Assembly: GCA_016987375.1 (NCBI GenBank)
Contig: PJRA01000493.1
Coordinates: forward strand, 1,091,578-1,155,577
Reading direction: 5' to 3'
DNA length: 64,000 nucleotides
Source: Brachionus koreanus
Taxonomy: Eukaryota > Rotifera > Eurotatoria > Ploima > Brachionidae
Shown: positions 28,698 to 63,597 of the stretch, piece after piece
How the letters are laid out: each line of letters opens with the position of its first letter
Position numbering within the stretch: the stretch's first letter is position 1
The notes under the pieces: model-generated
What the model was told of the DNA's origin: nothing
The model's input: only the letters and a program-made list of their open reading frames with translations
The model's database searches: none
Program-made: the position numbers and the translations under genes

Positions 28698-29675
28698 ATG
28701 AGCGTAGAACCGTTGAATGTGACAGTGGAGCCAGCCAGAATAGAGAACACAAACACAATTCCCACAGAAAATTTAGACTTAACATCAACTAAATCAGACA
28801 CTACTGAAAACAAAGATCAAATCCAAGAAACAGATAATTCCAAACGTGTTATTGACTTTTACGTGGAAGCGCTGGTTCACTCTGTTACTTGTTCGGAGAC
28901 GAATTGTCGCGTAGAAAAGTGTCGACAATTCAAAAGAGTAGTTAGCCACTTTAATTCATGCGAAAAAGTTAATAGCCAATGCGACTATTGTCGTCAATTG
29001 GTTGCTTTGTGTGTCATACATGCCAAGACATGCCGAGCTGAAGATTGTCGCATACCTGATTGCCATGTGATAAAATTAAAATTGGCCTCTTTGGAGGAAT
29101 TGAAAGCTAAAACACAAAGCATTTTAGAGTATATCCGATTGAATATTGGTCTAATGGAATACAAGACAACATGTGAATGTCAAACTCAGACTGACCAAGA
29201 ATCCACACTATCAAATCTAGTTTCAGATAGTGAAAAACAAAGAAACAGAAGCGTTTTACTCGAAAAAATCGAGTATATCAAGTCAGTGCCAACAGTCAAA
29301 CTTTCATTGAGAGAGGAAAAGCTTTTTAAATTTGAGCGCAAGCTACGCAATCAATTGGTTAAGCAATTGATTGAATCTATTGTAGATAAATTTTGTTTAA
29401 AAGAAAAAAATTTTTATAAAAATGTTTCTTATGCGTCACTAGTTGTCTATATAATTAAAACAGAAAGTAATTTGTACACAAAAACAAACAATTCAGATGA
29501 TTATATTTGTTTGATGAGCGAACTTGTGTTTGACTTGGAAAAACGATTGAAAGCCAAAATGTGTGTCGATTCGAGTGCTCAAGTTGATTTTTTGAATAGA
29601 GGAAAAGCTTCATTGAGTGAAGAAGAGGCAAGTGAACAGATACCGCCAAGCAAAAAACTCAAATTAGACAATTGA
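28698..29675 (+). CDS. TAZ2 zinc finger plus KIX-like domain protein (CBP/p300-related, no HAT)
   Basis: Single exon, 325 residues. Residues 52-128 form a TAZ finger with three HCCC sites: H61/C65/C70/C75, H84/C88/C95/C98, H108/C112/C117/C122. The spacing (HX3CX4CX4C, HX3CX6CX2C, HX3CX4CX4C) and CRQLVALCVIHAKTC match TAZ2 of CBP/p300, not TAZ1. Residues about 208-287 align with the KIX domain: a LRNQLVKQLIESI helix, SLVVYIIKTESNLY and NNSDDYICLMSELVFDLEKR. A basic PPSKKLKLD tail is a likely nuclear signal. In CBP the order is TAZ1-KIX-bromo-HAT-ZZ-TAZ2; here TAZ2 precedes KIX and no catalytic domain is present or fits upstream. It may be an adaptor or competitor for CBP ligands (inference). 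An acceptor-like ctttag lies 8 bases before the ATG and AATAAA follows near 29728. Confidence 0.85.
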   Translation: MSVEPLNVTVEPARIENTNTIPTENLDLTSTKSDTTENKDQIQETDNSKRVIDFYVEALVHSVTCSETNCRVEKCRQFKRVVSHFNSCEKVNSQCDYCRQLVALCVIHAKTCRAEDCRIPDCHVIKLKLASLEELKAKTQSILEYIRLNIGLMEYKTTCECQTQTDQESTLSNLVSDSEKQRNRSVLLEKIEYIKSVPTVKLSLREEKLFKFERKLRNQLVKQLIESIVDKFCLKEKNFYKNVSYASLVVYIIKTESNLYTKTNNSDDYICLMSELVFDLEKRLKAKMCVDSSAQVDFLNRGKASLSEEEASEQIPPSKKLKLDN

Positions 29676-30104
29676 ACAATTTACAGATGATTTTGTTGTT
29701 GATTTATATTCTGGTGTCGAGTTTTAAAATAAAGATTTTCAATTTAGAAAAAAAAAAAAACTAACAAAAAGAAAAATGCATAAAACCGTTAAAATCTTGA
29801 TTAAATTTTAAAATTCGACTTATTATTTTTAATTAAAATTACATTGTACTATTTTGATTAATTGATAAAATCATTTGATTTACTTTTCCTTGTACTTTAT
29901 TTGAAAATTTAATAAAACTTAACTAAATTTTATATTTTAGACAATCATTTATTTATTTATTTAATTTTTTTTCCTTTTAGCTTAATCAATGCGTTTTGTC
30001 TGATTTTATTCATACAATGCTCTGCATATTCAAACAGAGAAAATTAAATTTCACAATCAAATTAACAGATTTTTAAATAAAGCTAGGCTAGAACTAACTC
30101 TTTG
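29676..30104. other. 3' flank with orphan exon candidate
   Basis: Holds the TAZ-KIX poly(A) signal. At 29982 a strong acceptor (tttttttccttttag) leads into a 31-codon frame (LNQCVLSDFIHTMLCIFKQ at its start) whose stop is followed by AATAAAG. It has the look of a terminal exon, but no upstream exon was found. Confidence 0.3.
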
Positions 30105-42066: not shown

Positions 42067-43390
42067 TTGGTTTACGGTTTATTTACAAATAAACAAGAAA
42101 AAACATACACAATTTTTTTTGAATTTATAAAAAGTTCGATTTCACCTTATTCAATATCTTGTGATTATGAATTGGCTATAATCAATTCAATAGAAGAAAC
42201 ATTTCCTAATACGGATATTTATGGTTGTTTTTTTCATTTAAAAAAATCAATATGGCGCCATGTGCAAGAAGAAGGACTTTCTAGCGAATACTCTGATCTA
42301 GCTAATCCTGATAACTTAATAAGACTGTATACCAAAATGTTAGCATGCTTGGCTTTCGTTCCACCAGATGATGTTCTTGAGGCTTTTATTTTACTACAAA
42401 AAACTATTTCTTCAAAGTTGTCTAAATTGTACAAATATTTTGAGGATAATTACATTGGCTCTAAAGGCAGAGGCAGATATGCCAGCCGGAAAGAGGCAAG
42501 ATTCCCGATATTACTCGGGAATTGTTATGAACGTACAAAACTAGTACTTCTCCGTACAAATAATAACCTTGAAACAAATGATAGCTGATTATATGCCTGA
42601 AAAAGTATTTGATTTTCTAAAAAATTTGTCTGACTTAGACCTTATATTATAGCAAAACACTAAGAAATGCTGAATGTAATATTCTACAATAGAGAAGGAA
42701 CTTTTGTCAATGGTCAGAGCAATGGAAGCTAATCATGAGTATTTGTTTGGAACAAAATTTGACGTCTTAAGCGTAGAGTAGTAGAGTCATGGGTAAATAA
42801 CGAAAGTAAAGGAAATTTAGTTTTTGATAAAACTTCCAACAGTCCGATGTTGAAAAATCACACAAAGTACCCCGATAAAGGAAACTAATCAAGTACAGAA
42901 GGCTTTTGAAAAGTCACCAAAATCAGTCATTGAATCAGCTGAGATTGATGAACAATTAAAACCATAAAACTAACAACGTAAGCAAATAAAAAATTCTAAA
43001 AATTTTTCGAAAAAATCTTCGAAGAAGATAGCAAGTTAAGTGCTTTATTTTTTTATTGTAATAATATAGGTGAAAAAAAAAAAGATAATAATAATTTTTT
43101 TGTAAAATTTGTTTTTCCTAATAATTAATATTAATGAAAATGAGCATAATTAAAATTTAAAATTAAAATTAAAATTTAAATTTAAATACTTTAACAAAAA
43201 TTTTAAAGAATAATGTCTTACATAAATGACATTATGGTACACGGTATTCCGAACGTACCAAACGCAGGCAACATCTTAAGGAACGAATTGAACAAATTCC
43301 CAAATGGGACCCTCACATGAAAACAAATAATGCCTTTCTCAGATAAGAAGATGCGACAGTTCAAGAGGAGGCAGTGAAATTCCCAAATCG
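42067..43390 (+). mobile_element. MULE transposase core remnant interrupted by a Gypsy RNase H piece
   Basis: 42067-42588 encodes SCDYELAIINSIEETFPNTD and IYGCFFHLKKSIWRHVQEEG, the MULE transposase block (CDYE.A..NAI...FP...I.GC.FH..Q..W). About 42636-42775 instead reads LYYSKTLRNAE and, one frame over, STIEKELLSMVRAMEANHEY, typical of Ty3/Gypsy RNase H. Near 43243-43330, TRYSERTKRRQHLKERIEQI resembles the MULE C-terminal region, so the Gypsy fragment may be nested. All frames are broken. Confidence 0.65.
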
Positions 43391-48832: not shown

Positions 48833-49618
<786 letters not shown>

Positions 49619-58561: not shown

Positions 58562-61500
58562 ATGGAAAACAGTTTGATGGAAGACATAGATGTCGACTTC
58601 ATGAGCGGTAAATAAAAACACTGAGCTATTTTTTTTTTGAATTTTTTTAAATAAAATTTTATACTGAAGAAATCCTGGGTTCGTCAGAGCTGCACATGGC
58701 CGACAACATGATCCAAGACCTGATGGGCGACATTAACTCAAAACCAGCCACTCAAACCTGGTTCGCAAACAATCAGAGCCAAAACTTTGTTAACCCTAGC
58801 CAAAATTATCATCAGCTTTCTAATACAGATCCGTACCAAGCGAACGCGGTGCCACAGCAACCTTACCAAAGCCAGCCGCTTGTCTACGAACCGGTTAGCT
58901 TCAACAACAATCTAATCCCGGTAAATTTGCCCGCCAATAACCAAAGCATGATAATTCTTTCAAATGAAAATCAAATGGAAGTACCGTTGCTCAACGTGGA
59001 GCCACAGAACATATTCGTTTACAACCAGAATGAGCCAAGTGCAAAAAAGACACGCAAAAACCTAAAGGATATAATGAACGGCGAGAAGAGCTCTGCTGAT
59101 CCGAGCTATTTGGCTGTTGAGCAAAATTTGGTCACATCCTCCTCTCCTGTGCACACTATCAGTCCTGGTGGTCAAAATTTTCATATGCCGCTCACTCCGC
59201 CTTCGCCTATTCAGACTAAAAACGAGCCCAGCGAAAACAAAAAAAGCCGAAAATCAAAGAGCGAAAATTTATACGAAACAGACTCGAAAAAAAACAAGCC
59301 TCCTAAGCGCACATCTCACAATGCCATTGAAAAAAAATACCGCTCAAGCATAAACGACAAAATAGTTGAGCTTAAAGTAAAAGTGGCCGGCAAAGATGTA
59401 AAACTACAAAAATCTGGCATATTAAGAAAAGCTTTAGAGTACATAAACAATTTAGAAGAAAATAACAAGCAATTAATCGATGAAAATTGTACACTACGTA
59501 CAGCATTGCAGACAATATCTTTAAATTCAAATAATTTGAATATAATACAAAGTGTTTTGAGCAGTGTTAATCTAGCCGAGCCAAAATTGAAGCTTATCGA
59601 ATCGCCAAATACGCCACCATCGTCTGGCTCATCACTGGATGACGATTCATTCTTGTCCACATCAGACTCGGAAGCATCAATTAGTCAACAATCATCAAAT
59701 GTTTCTAGTTCACAAAACAAGGCTAAAACAACGCGCAATTACAAGAAAAAAGTCAAAAAAGAAGCTATTAAAGAAAGCTCAAGAATAATGTTATGCATGG
59801 TTGTAATGAGTGTGTTAATATTCAATCCGTTTAGTCTGATACTACCATCATCGTCTGATCAAAGCGAATCAATGACACAAATATACAAAAATGAAAAACT
59901 AGCATCTGGTGGCCGAGTTCTCAATTGGTTAGACATGGACAACGACCAATATTCCAATTCTAGCATGTTCATGGACAAAAAACCGGTCTATCATGACCTC
60001 AATTTTGTCCTCAGCTGGCTATTAAACACAATACTGATTCTATCATGTCTGATTAAAATATGTGTTAGCGGCGAATCGTACGTAAGCTTGAGCTCGCACC
60101 ATATGGACACCATTGGGCTGCATTACGATCAAGCAGGCAAAAAATTTCAACAAAACAAATACGAAGAAGCGTTTGCCTTGCTTGAAAAAGGCCTCAGCGA
60201 ACTCGGACAAACAGTTCCGCGCTCCAAAATTAGTTTAACAATGGGCATAGCCTGGCAAATGAATAGGCTAATTTTGAACAAACTTTGCATTGGTGTTTGG
60301 CTAACCAGGCTAGGCATGTGGCTGTACGGTGTCCGAAATGCCAAAATGTACAAGCTTAGCGCACTTTTCTACTATGAAATGCACAAATTTTCCTATTTGA
60401 ACATGAAATCCCAACGAGACTTTGTGCTCAAAAGCAGCTGTGTTCAAACAAGCTCTTATTCTGTCCTAATGTATTTATACTACGTTCTCAGCATGCATAA
60501 CATGAGTGACATTTACACTCGACTTGTGCACGCACAAAACAAGGACATTTCTCTCAGAGACAAATTTGATTTGTGCGAGTTCTATTTTTCGGCTTTATTG
60601 GCCTCCAAATTTCGCTTGTCTTCAAATTTGAGCAAAATTTTGAGCAAATATTTGCTAAAAAATCACCTATTCAAAGTTTTTAATGAAAAATGTGAAACTG
60701 AAAATGATTTTGAGCAAAGATGCAAGCTGAGAACCCTCAGAACAATGCTTGACAAGAATTTATTTATACATTTTGTGGTAAATTTTGAGGACTATTTGCC
60801 AACAAAGACAAATAAAGACACATCAAAAACAAACAATCAAAATAATGAGTTTATGGGAATTGAGATGCTTAATTTGATTCAGTACAAACGACGCTTGCTA
60901 TCAAGCTCATTTTTGTACGATGCTGACGATTCATTGACAAATGACGATTGTGCCAAACGAATAATATGTGCCAATGGAGTGTCGTGTGAGTTTTTAATGT
61001 CGAAATTTCAGGACTTTTTGCTATCCAAAATGACAAATCATATTTTTAATAGTTCCGGTGTGGTGTCTATTGAAAGACTGCTCGAGTCAGTCAGTTGCGC
61101 AAATGACCAAAATGTGGCGAGCATTTCTGGAATGGATGATTTGAGCGAGCAGGAGCAAGAGTTGGCCAATGTCGACCAGATTAAGTTTGAAAGACTTGAG
61201 ATGATGTACAAGACTAGCATGGAGTATTTTTCGGCTTCGGAGATGCAAAAACTTGGCCATAGACAGCTAGAAGCCCACTTGGTACTTATCGAACTCTTGA
61301 GCATGTTGAATAGATGGAAGCTTAGAAAATTCGATCATAAAATTATGAACACAAATGATATGAAGAATTCTTTCAACAGCCAGTTCATTGAAGCAGTCAT
61401 ATTTTTGCTAAAAGCCTATGAAAGCTTGCAAGAGCCGGATAAAGCTTTGCAATATTGCCAAAAATCTGCATCAGCTTTGGATTCGTTCAATAGAAGCACA

Positions 61501-63597
61501 GGCTTGTCTTCTCAAGGCTTCTTAGTTGAGGTAACTATTTATTAAATTAAATTATTTAATTAGAAAAAAAATTGAGAAATTTATGCTTTTTTTTTTGTGA
61601 CCAAATGAAACAATACAACTAAAAAAACTATTAAGTTCTTTTAAATTTGAAAATTTTTTGTATCAACTTATTTCTTAATGCGACTGTATCCAATTTAAAT
61701 TTAAATAAGCTATGGGCATGTTTATTGATTCAGTTCTTAACCAGCTTACTACTTTTTCTTTCACCGCACATTTTGTTTTCTTTCACAAATGCTAAATTAG
61801 CCTGGATTAAAAATTTAACTTTGCTTTAAATTTTTTAAGACTCAAAGGCCGGAGGAGTCTTTTGACTCCCTTTTGTTACTTCTTTTCTTTCTTTTTTGTT
61901 CAATAAATTTAATCATTGTTCTAAGGTACGTGCGTAGCACAATTGGCGCATTAAATTTGAATTTCAGAGAACCGAGAACTTAGAAAAAAAATTTTTTGGA
62001 GAAAAAAAAATTGTTTTTTTGACCCTACACCCTAAACGATTTGAAAAACAAAACTTTTTCACACTTTAATATCTCATTTTTAAATATGCTTGTCCTCATA
62101 GTATTACACATCAAAGAGATCAAATTTTTCCATTTAAAAACAAAAATTGTTACTATCCACGAATCTATCAACCTAAACTTATTAGAATTAAGAAACTTTT
62201 GTTGAAATTTCTAACCAAAAGAACAAACCATCAACAACTAATCCAAAATCTCGCGTCATGTCACGCCCAATTCACACTTAACACCACCAATGTATTATAA
62301 AAGATATTTAAACTAAAATTCTTTTAAAATAGTTCCATTTTTCTTTTATTCGTTGGGCTAATAAGAAAGCCTTAGTTCCATCCTGTTCTGACCGAAGCTC
62401 AGCCAAAACTATTTTAATAACAAATAACAATATATAGTATTGCACCAATTCTGATAGGAAATAATATCTTTTATAATCTGAATCAAGATATTATGTCCTT
62501 AATTTACCAATATCTGAGTCAAAAATGGTAAAACTTTTCAAGGATTTTTTTCAGTATTTTTGTATCTTCTCGGCTTATTTTTTCAGATTCGAAAACAAGA
62601 CAAAATTCTGAACAAATCTTTAAAAATCACTTTTTTCTTTTTTTTTATTTTTAAGATTTTAAAATTGAGTCAAAAAAGGGTGATTTACAAAAAAAAGTAT
62701 AATTTTTAATTATGAAAATTTAGAATCCCTAGGCCTTTTGCTTAGATTATTTAAAGATAATGTATTTATGTGGTTGTGTCATCATCTATACATTGACTTG
62801 TTAATTGAAATTTTAAATTTAATTAAAACAATTGATGAAAAATAATTCTTTAAATAATTTCTCAAATTTAATTTTTAACCATGCTTTTAAATCTGAATTT
62901 CAATTTTGAGTTTTCTCATAGTTTTAATTTAAACTTTTTGATTCTTTGTTTTTCTGAAAATTTAATTTTTTTGATCATCCATCAAGTGATCAGATAGATT
63001 TGAAAAGTCTCTGAAATACACTTTTACCAGTCTCATAATGACACAAAAAACTTCTCACTTAAATAGACTGGTGAGAATTGGAAGCTAGGCATTTAAGAAT
63101 TAAGTTAAGTTAGTTTACTTAACTAAGTTTTTTTTTTCAATTGCAAGTTTTGCTTTCAAAATTTTGTACCGATAAAAAAAATAGGGCTTTCTTACTAAAT
63201 TTTTCTTTTCAATGATGAAATAAAATAAATTAAAAAAAAATCAGAGAAATTTTTAATCAAAAAAGAGTAAATAATAAATTTTTTTTAGAAATTTGAACTG
63301 TTAATATATGACTGGCTTTTATCTGCACAAATTCACTTGTGGACCAAAACAAAATCCCACAATCTGGCTTTATATAATAGATGTCTGCAAAATTTTAGAT
63401 CCAAAGTTTGCGATTTTCCCGAATTGAATTATAAAGTAGAAATGTACGAAACAATAATTAAATTCAGCACAAATAGAAATCCGATTCAAATGTTGAATCC
63501 TATGTCAAAGCATCATTTCGTTTCCAAATCCAACCAAGAGGCTTTTAAATCAATAAATTTTATTTTTAAAAAATTAAATCTTCAACTTTTAGATTGA
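58562..63597 (+). CDS. SREBF: sterol regulatory element-binding protein (SREBP), three exons
   Basis: Exons 58562-58607, 58670-61530 and 63289-63597 join in frame to 1,071 residues (human SREBP-1 1,147). Exons 1-2 encode an acidic activation start ([18 protein letters not shown]) and a Gln/Asn/Ser-rich region. The bHLH-zipper lies at about residues 227-300: [18 protein letters not shown] has the tyrosine characteristic of SREBPs, followed by [20 protein letters not shown]. Two membrane segments (about 386-410 and 455-480) start [14 protein letters not shown], with the FNPFS proline pair that site-2 protease cleavage needs, and enclose a lumenal loop with [11 protein letters not shown]. The long C-terminal domain ends in exon 3 ([15 protein letters not shown]). 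The precursor is an ER protein escorted by SCAP and cut by S1P/S2P to release the factor for lipid-synthesis genes. Confidence 0.95.
61531..63288 (+). other. SREBP intron 2 (1.76 kb)
   Basis: Donor gtaact follows LVE and acceptor ttttttag precedes [11 protein letters not shown], matching the family across the join. It contains a one-sided family A terminus at 61835-61920 (TTAA, gactcaaaggccggaggagtc) and a less AT-rich island near 61925-61975. The remainder is AT-rich. Confidence 0.85.
61835..61920. repeat. one-ended family A MITE terminus
   Basis: TTAA then GACTCAAAGGCCGGAGGAGTC and a ttgttcaataaatttaatca block, matching the left end of the copy at 19720. No opposite end was found within about 600 bp, so this is a truncated copy. 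Confidence 0.6.

Follow-up and report, generated by a model that had tools for sequence, protein, structure and literature searches.

A Putative CBP-Derived TAZ2–KIX Protein without an Acetyltransferase Domain in the Rotifer Brachionus

The stretch of Brachionus koreanus DNA analyzed here (64,000 nucleotides of contig PJRA01000493.1, positions 1,091,578 to 1,155,577 of the forward strand; hereafter the window) encodes on its plus strand a protein of 325 amino acids (28698..29675, stop codon included in the span), in which a TAZ2-type zinc domain (residues 49–133, 28842..29096) is followed by a diverged KIX domain (residues 204–289, 29307..29564) and a C-terminal basic tail, PPSKKLKLDN (29643..29672). 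Our leading, still tentative, reading is that this TAZ2–KIX gene derives from that of the coactivator CBP, has kept TAZ2, KIX, and the basic tail, and encodes a competitor that lacks a histone acetyltransferase (HAT) and would take up some of the activation domains.

Domain Content and Order

The zinc domain was assigned by several kinds of comparison. Pfam places zf-TAZ at residues 56–122 (E 7.3e-12, 46 bits, cut-off 25), and among solved structures the zinc part matches p300 TAZ2 (4.7e-17), the best TAZ1 being at 0.43. Profile–profile comparison of the five orthologues gave 99.8% for TAZ2 versus 62% for TAZ1, and queries taken from the species' own CBP scored 88.9 bits (TAZ2) versus 17.7 bits (TAZ1) on the small protein. 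A preliminary description, made from the sequence alone, had pointed to three HCCC zinc sites with TAZ2 spacing; alignment bears this out, as all 12 ligands (H61, C65, C70, and C75; H84, C88, C95, and C98; H108, C112, C117, and C122) are invariant in all five orthologues. Of the TAZ2 columns, 27 do not vary among 29 CBP rows; the five small proteins all retain 19 of these and have all changed at 4, including one from F to D. The net charge of the domain is +1 to +5 in the five small proteins versus +11 to +17 in all 30 CBP rows; by this measure, the strongly basic surface of a CBP-type TAZ2 is absent from the small proteins.

The second segment had likewise been proposed to be KIX, and this identity holds. 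Pfam reports KIX at residues 206–285 (E 1.5e-6, 28.8 bits, just over the cut-off of 27), CBP KIX is matched among solved structures at 2e-4, and profile–profile comparison of the five orthologues gave 96.3% for KIX versus 0.2% for NCBD. The latter was tested as an alternative identity because one alignment had set the small-protein KIX against the C-terminal NCBD region of CBP, a mispairing caused by the anchoring of TAZ2 to TAZ2; it was rejected on that profile probability and on phmmer scores of about zero or below, the pattern behind the NCBD profile having found 5 of the 12 intended NCBD rows. A structure model of the whole protein from five sequences was discarded (mean predicted local distance difference test score, pLDDT, 43). 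A usable KIX model came from aligning the KIX fragment to 28 CBPs, in register and with the other small proteins left out; it resembles CBP KIX with template modeling (TM) scores of 0.73/0.78 and a Foldseek E of 0.016, and supports a KIX fold with a diverged sequence for the second domain.

This divergence extends to the surfaces by which KIX binds its ligands. Among 23 KIX columns invariant in 26 CBP rows, 6 are kept and 12 are changed in all five small proteins (one of the 12, the Trp, depends partly on fragment ends), and the net charge is +4 to +9 in the small proteins versus −2 to +6 in CBPs. With groove contacts as listed in the excerpted text of PMC3305381, the window protein shares with vertebrate CBP 4 of 12 residues in the Myb (pKID/Myb) groove and 5 of 6 in the core MLL groove; the other four small proteins share 4, 4, 4, and 7 of 12 (the 7 being Brachionus calyciflorus) and 4, 4, 5, and 2 of 6, respectively, and the rotifer CBPs tested 8–9 of 12 and 4–5 of 6. 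At six further MLL contacts, none of the residues is as in vertebrate CBP in any of the five small proteins. Within the small-protein KIX, the L12 loop and helix 2 are conserved at 23 of 32 positions versus 9 of 22 for helix 3 (p 0.028), but their conservation is not clearly above that of helices 1 and 3 taken together (18 of 37, p 0.084).

No match to HAT_KAT11, TAZ1, bromodomain, RING, PHD, or ZZ was found in the TAZ2–KIX protein by Pfam up to E 10, the sole further match in this range being CHASE9 at E 0.12, under its cut-off; the N-terminus, linker, and C-terminus gave no convincing homology to four CBPs. The protein is thus HAT-less and stand-alone with TAZ2 before KIX, as had been suggested. 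In CBP a basic motif comes first, followed by TAZ1, KIX, the catalytic core, and TAZ2; the small protein, with no second TAZ domain and without the CBP succession TAZ1–KIX–core–TAZ2, runs TAZ2, KIX, PPSKKLKLDN, an order that mirrors that of CBP. The pattern PPx(1-2)K[KR]xK[LIMVF] has 82 matches within the N-terminal 40 residues of 121 CBPs and, over 274,408 residues, none outside this region, a count that is descriptive, as the pattern was written after both sequences were seen. Six-frame translation of the window, in stretches of at least 60 codons (16,839 residues), gives a single match, PPSKKLKLDN itself, and the tail is kept in all five small proteins. The tail is a predicted nuclear import signal and may be either a moved piece of CBP or a convergent nuclear signal; ten residues are too few to discriminate. 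Were CBP copies fused in tandem, tail to head, the expected order would be TAZ2, nuclear signal, TAZ1, KIX; such a fusion alone therefore does not account for the observed order.

Genomic Context, Orthologues, and Origin

A separate full-length CBP, whose presence the preliminary description had asked about, was found in the genome (83.3 Mb in 92 contigs; domain counts are from six frames, scored on the best candidates, with some stretches read as N). It comprises 1943 amino acids with TAZ1, KIX, bromodomain, RING, PHD, HAT, ZZ, and TAZ2, and lies on the same contig and strand as the small gene, 39 kb upstream (C18:1075090-1080921). Animal CBP genes are mostly intron-rich; this coding region (L015:1591-7419) is one uninterrupted frame. 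The genome search gave three TAZ matches, two in CBP and one in the small gene. Of its three KIX matches, one is in CBP, one in the small gene, and the third in a KIX-only frame (C18:890278-890481). HAT_KAT11 was matched once, within CBP. The KIX-only frame is a second CBP fragment, of 142 codons on the minus strand (C18:890139-890565; Pfam KIX score 44 bits, above cut-off), which clusters with the KIX of the own and the B. calyciflorus CBP (Shimodaira–Hasegawa-like approximate likelihood ratio test, SH-aLRT, 87) and not with the small gene. Comparison at the DNA level of 8 kb around the small gene with the CBP locus gave, besides matches of E 4e-4 or worse, one stretch of 50 bases inside TAZ2 that matches at 80% (E 3e-6).

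The same domain order was also recovered in relatives: four public proteins share the layout, with BLASTP identities of 81, 72, 71, and 54% over 94–100% of the query, two of them named as Brachionus plicatilis and B. calyciflorus. Start, end, and length (312–328 amino acids) are shared by the five small proteins. Compared with the B. calyciflorus orthologue, the window protein is identical at 54 of 84 KIX and 57 of 85 TAZ2 positions (64–67%), the CBP domains at 74 of 85 and 74 of 86 (86–87%), suggesting that the small gene evolves faster than CBP, yet is constrained. The B. calyciflorus small protein and CBP are each recorded from a contig 135,325 bases long, which we take to be one and the same; the linkage of the two genes would then be conserved. 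Beyond the four orthologues, a profile search of proteins returned just one TAZ-only protein (P0005), although relatives with few exact words in common would be missed in this way, and viral contigs gave no relatives. A partial p300 named as from Austrofundulus limnaeus (P0012), with TAZ2 (480–565) before KIX (1120–1204) and a HAT in addition, is probably a misjoined assembly and was not used.

Of the best 120 CBP rows (from 814 found; many of the 120 are close relatives or isoforms), 29 entered the trees together with the own CBP, and 27 of the resulting 30 have a KIX; sequences called monogonont-type (P0007–P0011, P0013, and P0014) were so assigned from identity and tree position. The tree built on TAZ2 unites the small proteins in a single clade (support 100/99), located on the monogonont side of the branch (98/95) carrying bdelloids, molluscs, a nemertean, arthropods, and vertebrates; the program warned that the bootstrap had not settled. 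The combined TAZ2 and KIX tree separates the five small proteins and six monogonont-type CBPs from 21 others (100/99), under a program warning of long branches meeting, and the KIX-only tree has very long branches. From the grouping in the first two trees we infer an origin of the TAZ2–KIX gene from CBP, on the rotifer lineage leading to Brachionus. A clade of monogonont CBPs without the small proteins was not rejected by the approximately unbiased (AU) test (p 0.374), so the exact branching in the tree is provisional.

A random open frame of 325 codons has a probability of about 2e-13 at the local base composition. The stop-to-stop frame is 331 codons, with an in-frame stop 6 codons 5' of the ATG, and an AATAAA poly(A) signal (29728..29733) is followed by an A13 run starting at 29748. 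The length of the frame, this signal, and the basic tail are all as first described; the single exon is also present, but it is not special here, as the full-length CBP frame is uninterrupted too. The poly(A) signal and A run are compatible with retroposition, which can nevertheless not be inferred, because the window holds three such A runs and two T runs and because CBP, too, is a single frame. Alignment shows two Q-x-D sites that do not vary among the five small proteins, Q164-x-D166 within the variable linker (29187..29195) and Q295-x-D297 C-terminal to KIX (29580..29588); we take these to be possible dynein light chain motifs.

Elsewhere in the window, a pattern scan indicated a Hox-like gene on the minus strand (48949 and 49214–49618), with a YPWMK hexapeptide in the first exon, for which Pfam gave no match, and a homeodomain fragment just downstream. 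A single frame of 949 amino acids on the plus strand (58696–61545), presumably SREBP-like, encodes a helix-loop-helix domain (Pfam E 3.7e-12), and a MULE transposase fragment lies at 42067–42588 on the same strand (Pfam E 1.5e-8).

Possible Function and Alternatives

If the TAZ2–KIX protein is a competitor of CBP, it would likely enter the nucleus via its C-terminal tail. There it would dock on some of the activation domains, with the MLL-type groove of KIX as the most likely site, and leave the occupied activators without an acetyltransferase. Expression, nuclear location, activation-domain binding, competition with CBP, and a changed set of partners are all predicted components, the last because of the less basic TAZ2 and the altered Myb groove. 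Binding of the same activators as CBP, as originally envisaged, is weakened: the core of the MLL groove is largely kept in the window protein, whereas the charge of TAZ2, most of the Myb groove, and the further MLL contacts differ. That both folds are kept while both docking surfaces appear altered speaks against equal competition for every CBP ligand. It should also be noted that the B. calyciflorus orthologue, at 25.4 bits for KIX, stays under the Pfam cut-off (27), compared with 27.9–28.9 bits for the remaining three orthologues, which is a weak point of the KIX assignment. A more specific version, in which TAZ2, KIX, and the basic motif form a "mirror-image coactivator", a dedicated catalysis-free CBP antagonist with retuned docking surfaces that parallels nematode CBP-2 independently, is conceivable but rather doubtful; the independence from CBP-2 would be inferred here from a tree without nematode sequences.

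A close second to the competitor is a HAT-less adaptor, somewhat unlikely in itself, which would dock activators or coregulators and bridge them to other partners, maybe as a dimer via the Q-x-D sites, and support transcription rather than compete with CBP. The invariance of these two putative light-chain motifs amid variable stretches would fit such a role; so would docking surfaces that were both altered and thereafter conserved, as might be expected with a different group of partners, and the requirement of Caenorhabditis elegans CBP-3 for tbb-6 induction, as stated in the excerpted text of PMC10743222. Against an adaptor, Pfam found no effector domain beyond TAZ2 and KIX. It is improbable that the protein is instead a trans-inhibitor that directs its TAZ2 against the HAT core of CBP: within p300, TAZ2 is autoinhibitory until a transcription factor binds and lifts the inhibition (PMC10475075, in excerpt), but the excerpted text gave no passage on action in trans, the charge of the TAZ2 surface differs from that of CBP, and KIX stays unexplained.

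We consider it very unlikely that the gene is a nonfunctional relic or pseudogene of CBP. Its faster evolution relative to CBP and the KIX-only frame on the same contig, indicating that pieces of CBP do arise, would be consistent with a relic, but five intact frames have the same ends and retain all zinc ligands and the tail. Least credible of all is that the frame belongs to a larger HAT-bearing transcript or is a CBP isoform. This is what the database labels suggest, the B. plicatilis record being named "CREB-binding -like isoform X2" and the UniRef label reading histone acetyltransferase; however, the orthologues P0003 and P0004 have no HAT match, the single CBP frame already includes a TAZ1, a KIX, and a TAZ2 along with the sole HAT_KAT11, and the stop upstream of the ATG and the shared ends of the orthologues also argue against this reading.

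Comparison with Known CBP Paralogues

No description of a TAZ2–KIX protein or of this gene was found in the titles and abstract starts of open-licence PubMed Central (PMC) literature, in agreement with the preliminary description for this domain order; a HAT-less CBP paralogue as such has a precedent in CBP-2, and the orthologue sequences are already public under CBP or HAT names. Correcting the names that call two of the orthologues histone acetyltransferase would be one consequence of the present analysis. The docking roles of CBP/p300 are hard to separate from acetylation, as the domains sit on the enzyme, and the small gene presents two docking domains off the enzyme and in reverse, kept in two or more Brachionus species and in three further sequences; these are small laboratory animals in which its role is testable.

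With CBP/p300 (KAT3) the small protein has TAZ2, KIX, and the tail pattern in common, but it has no HAT core, its order is reversed, and its docking surfaces are altered. KIX without a HAT also occurs in the stand-alone proteins of KIXBASE and in HAC-related KIX proteins of plants; in the excerpted text of PMC5668377, those named are mainly from plants and no TAZ2–KIX pair is described. The nearest likeness is to C. elegans, where cbp-1, CBP-2, and CBP-3 all lie within 160 kb and RNA interference (RNAi) alters promoter activity; the excerpt of PMC10320766 describes CBP-2 as a HAT-less short paralogue with the first zinc finger and KIX and CBP-3 as the first zinc finger only, which conflicts with the KIX-only CBP-3 in that of PMC10743222. 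CBP-2 and the Brachionus protein are both HAT-less, with a TAZ-type finger and then KIX, and both are encoded near a full-length paralogue. CBP-2 carries the first zinc finger in CBP order, whereas the Brachionus protein has a TAZ2-type finger, and hence no TAZ1 finger with KIX, in reversed order and closes with a basic tail. If our reading is true, the Brachionus gene and nematode CBP-2 would together indicate that HAT-less CBP paralogues are a recurrent way to tune activator use.
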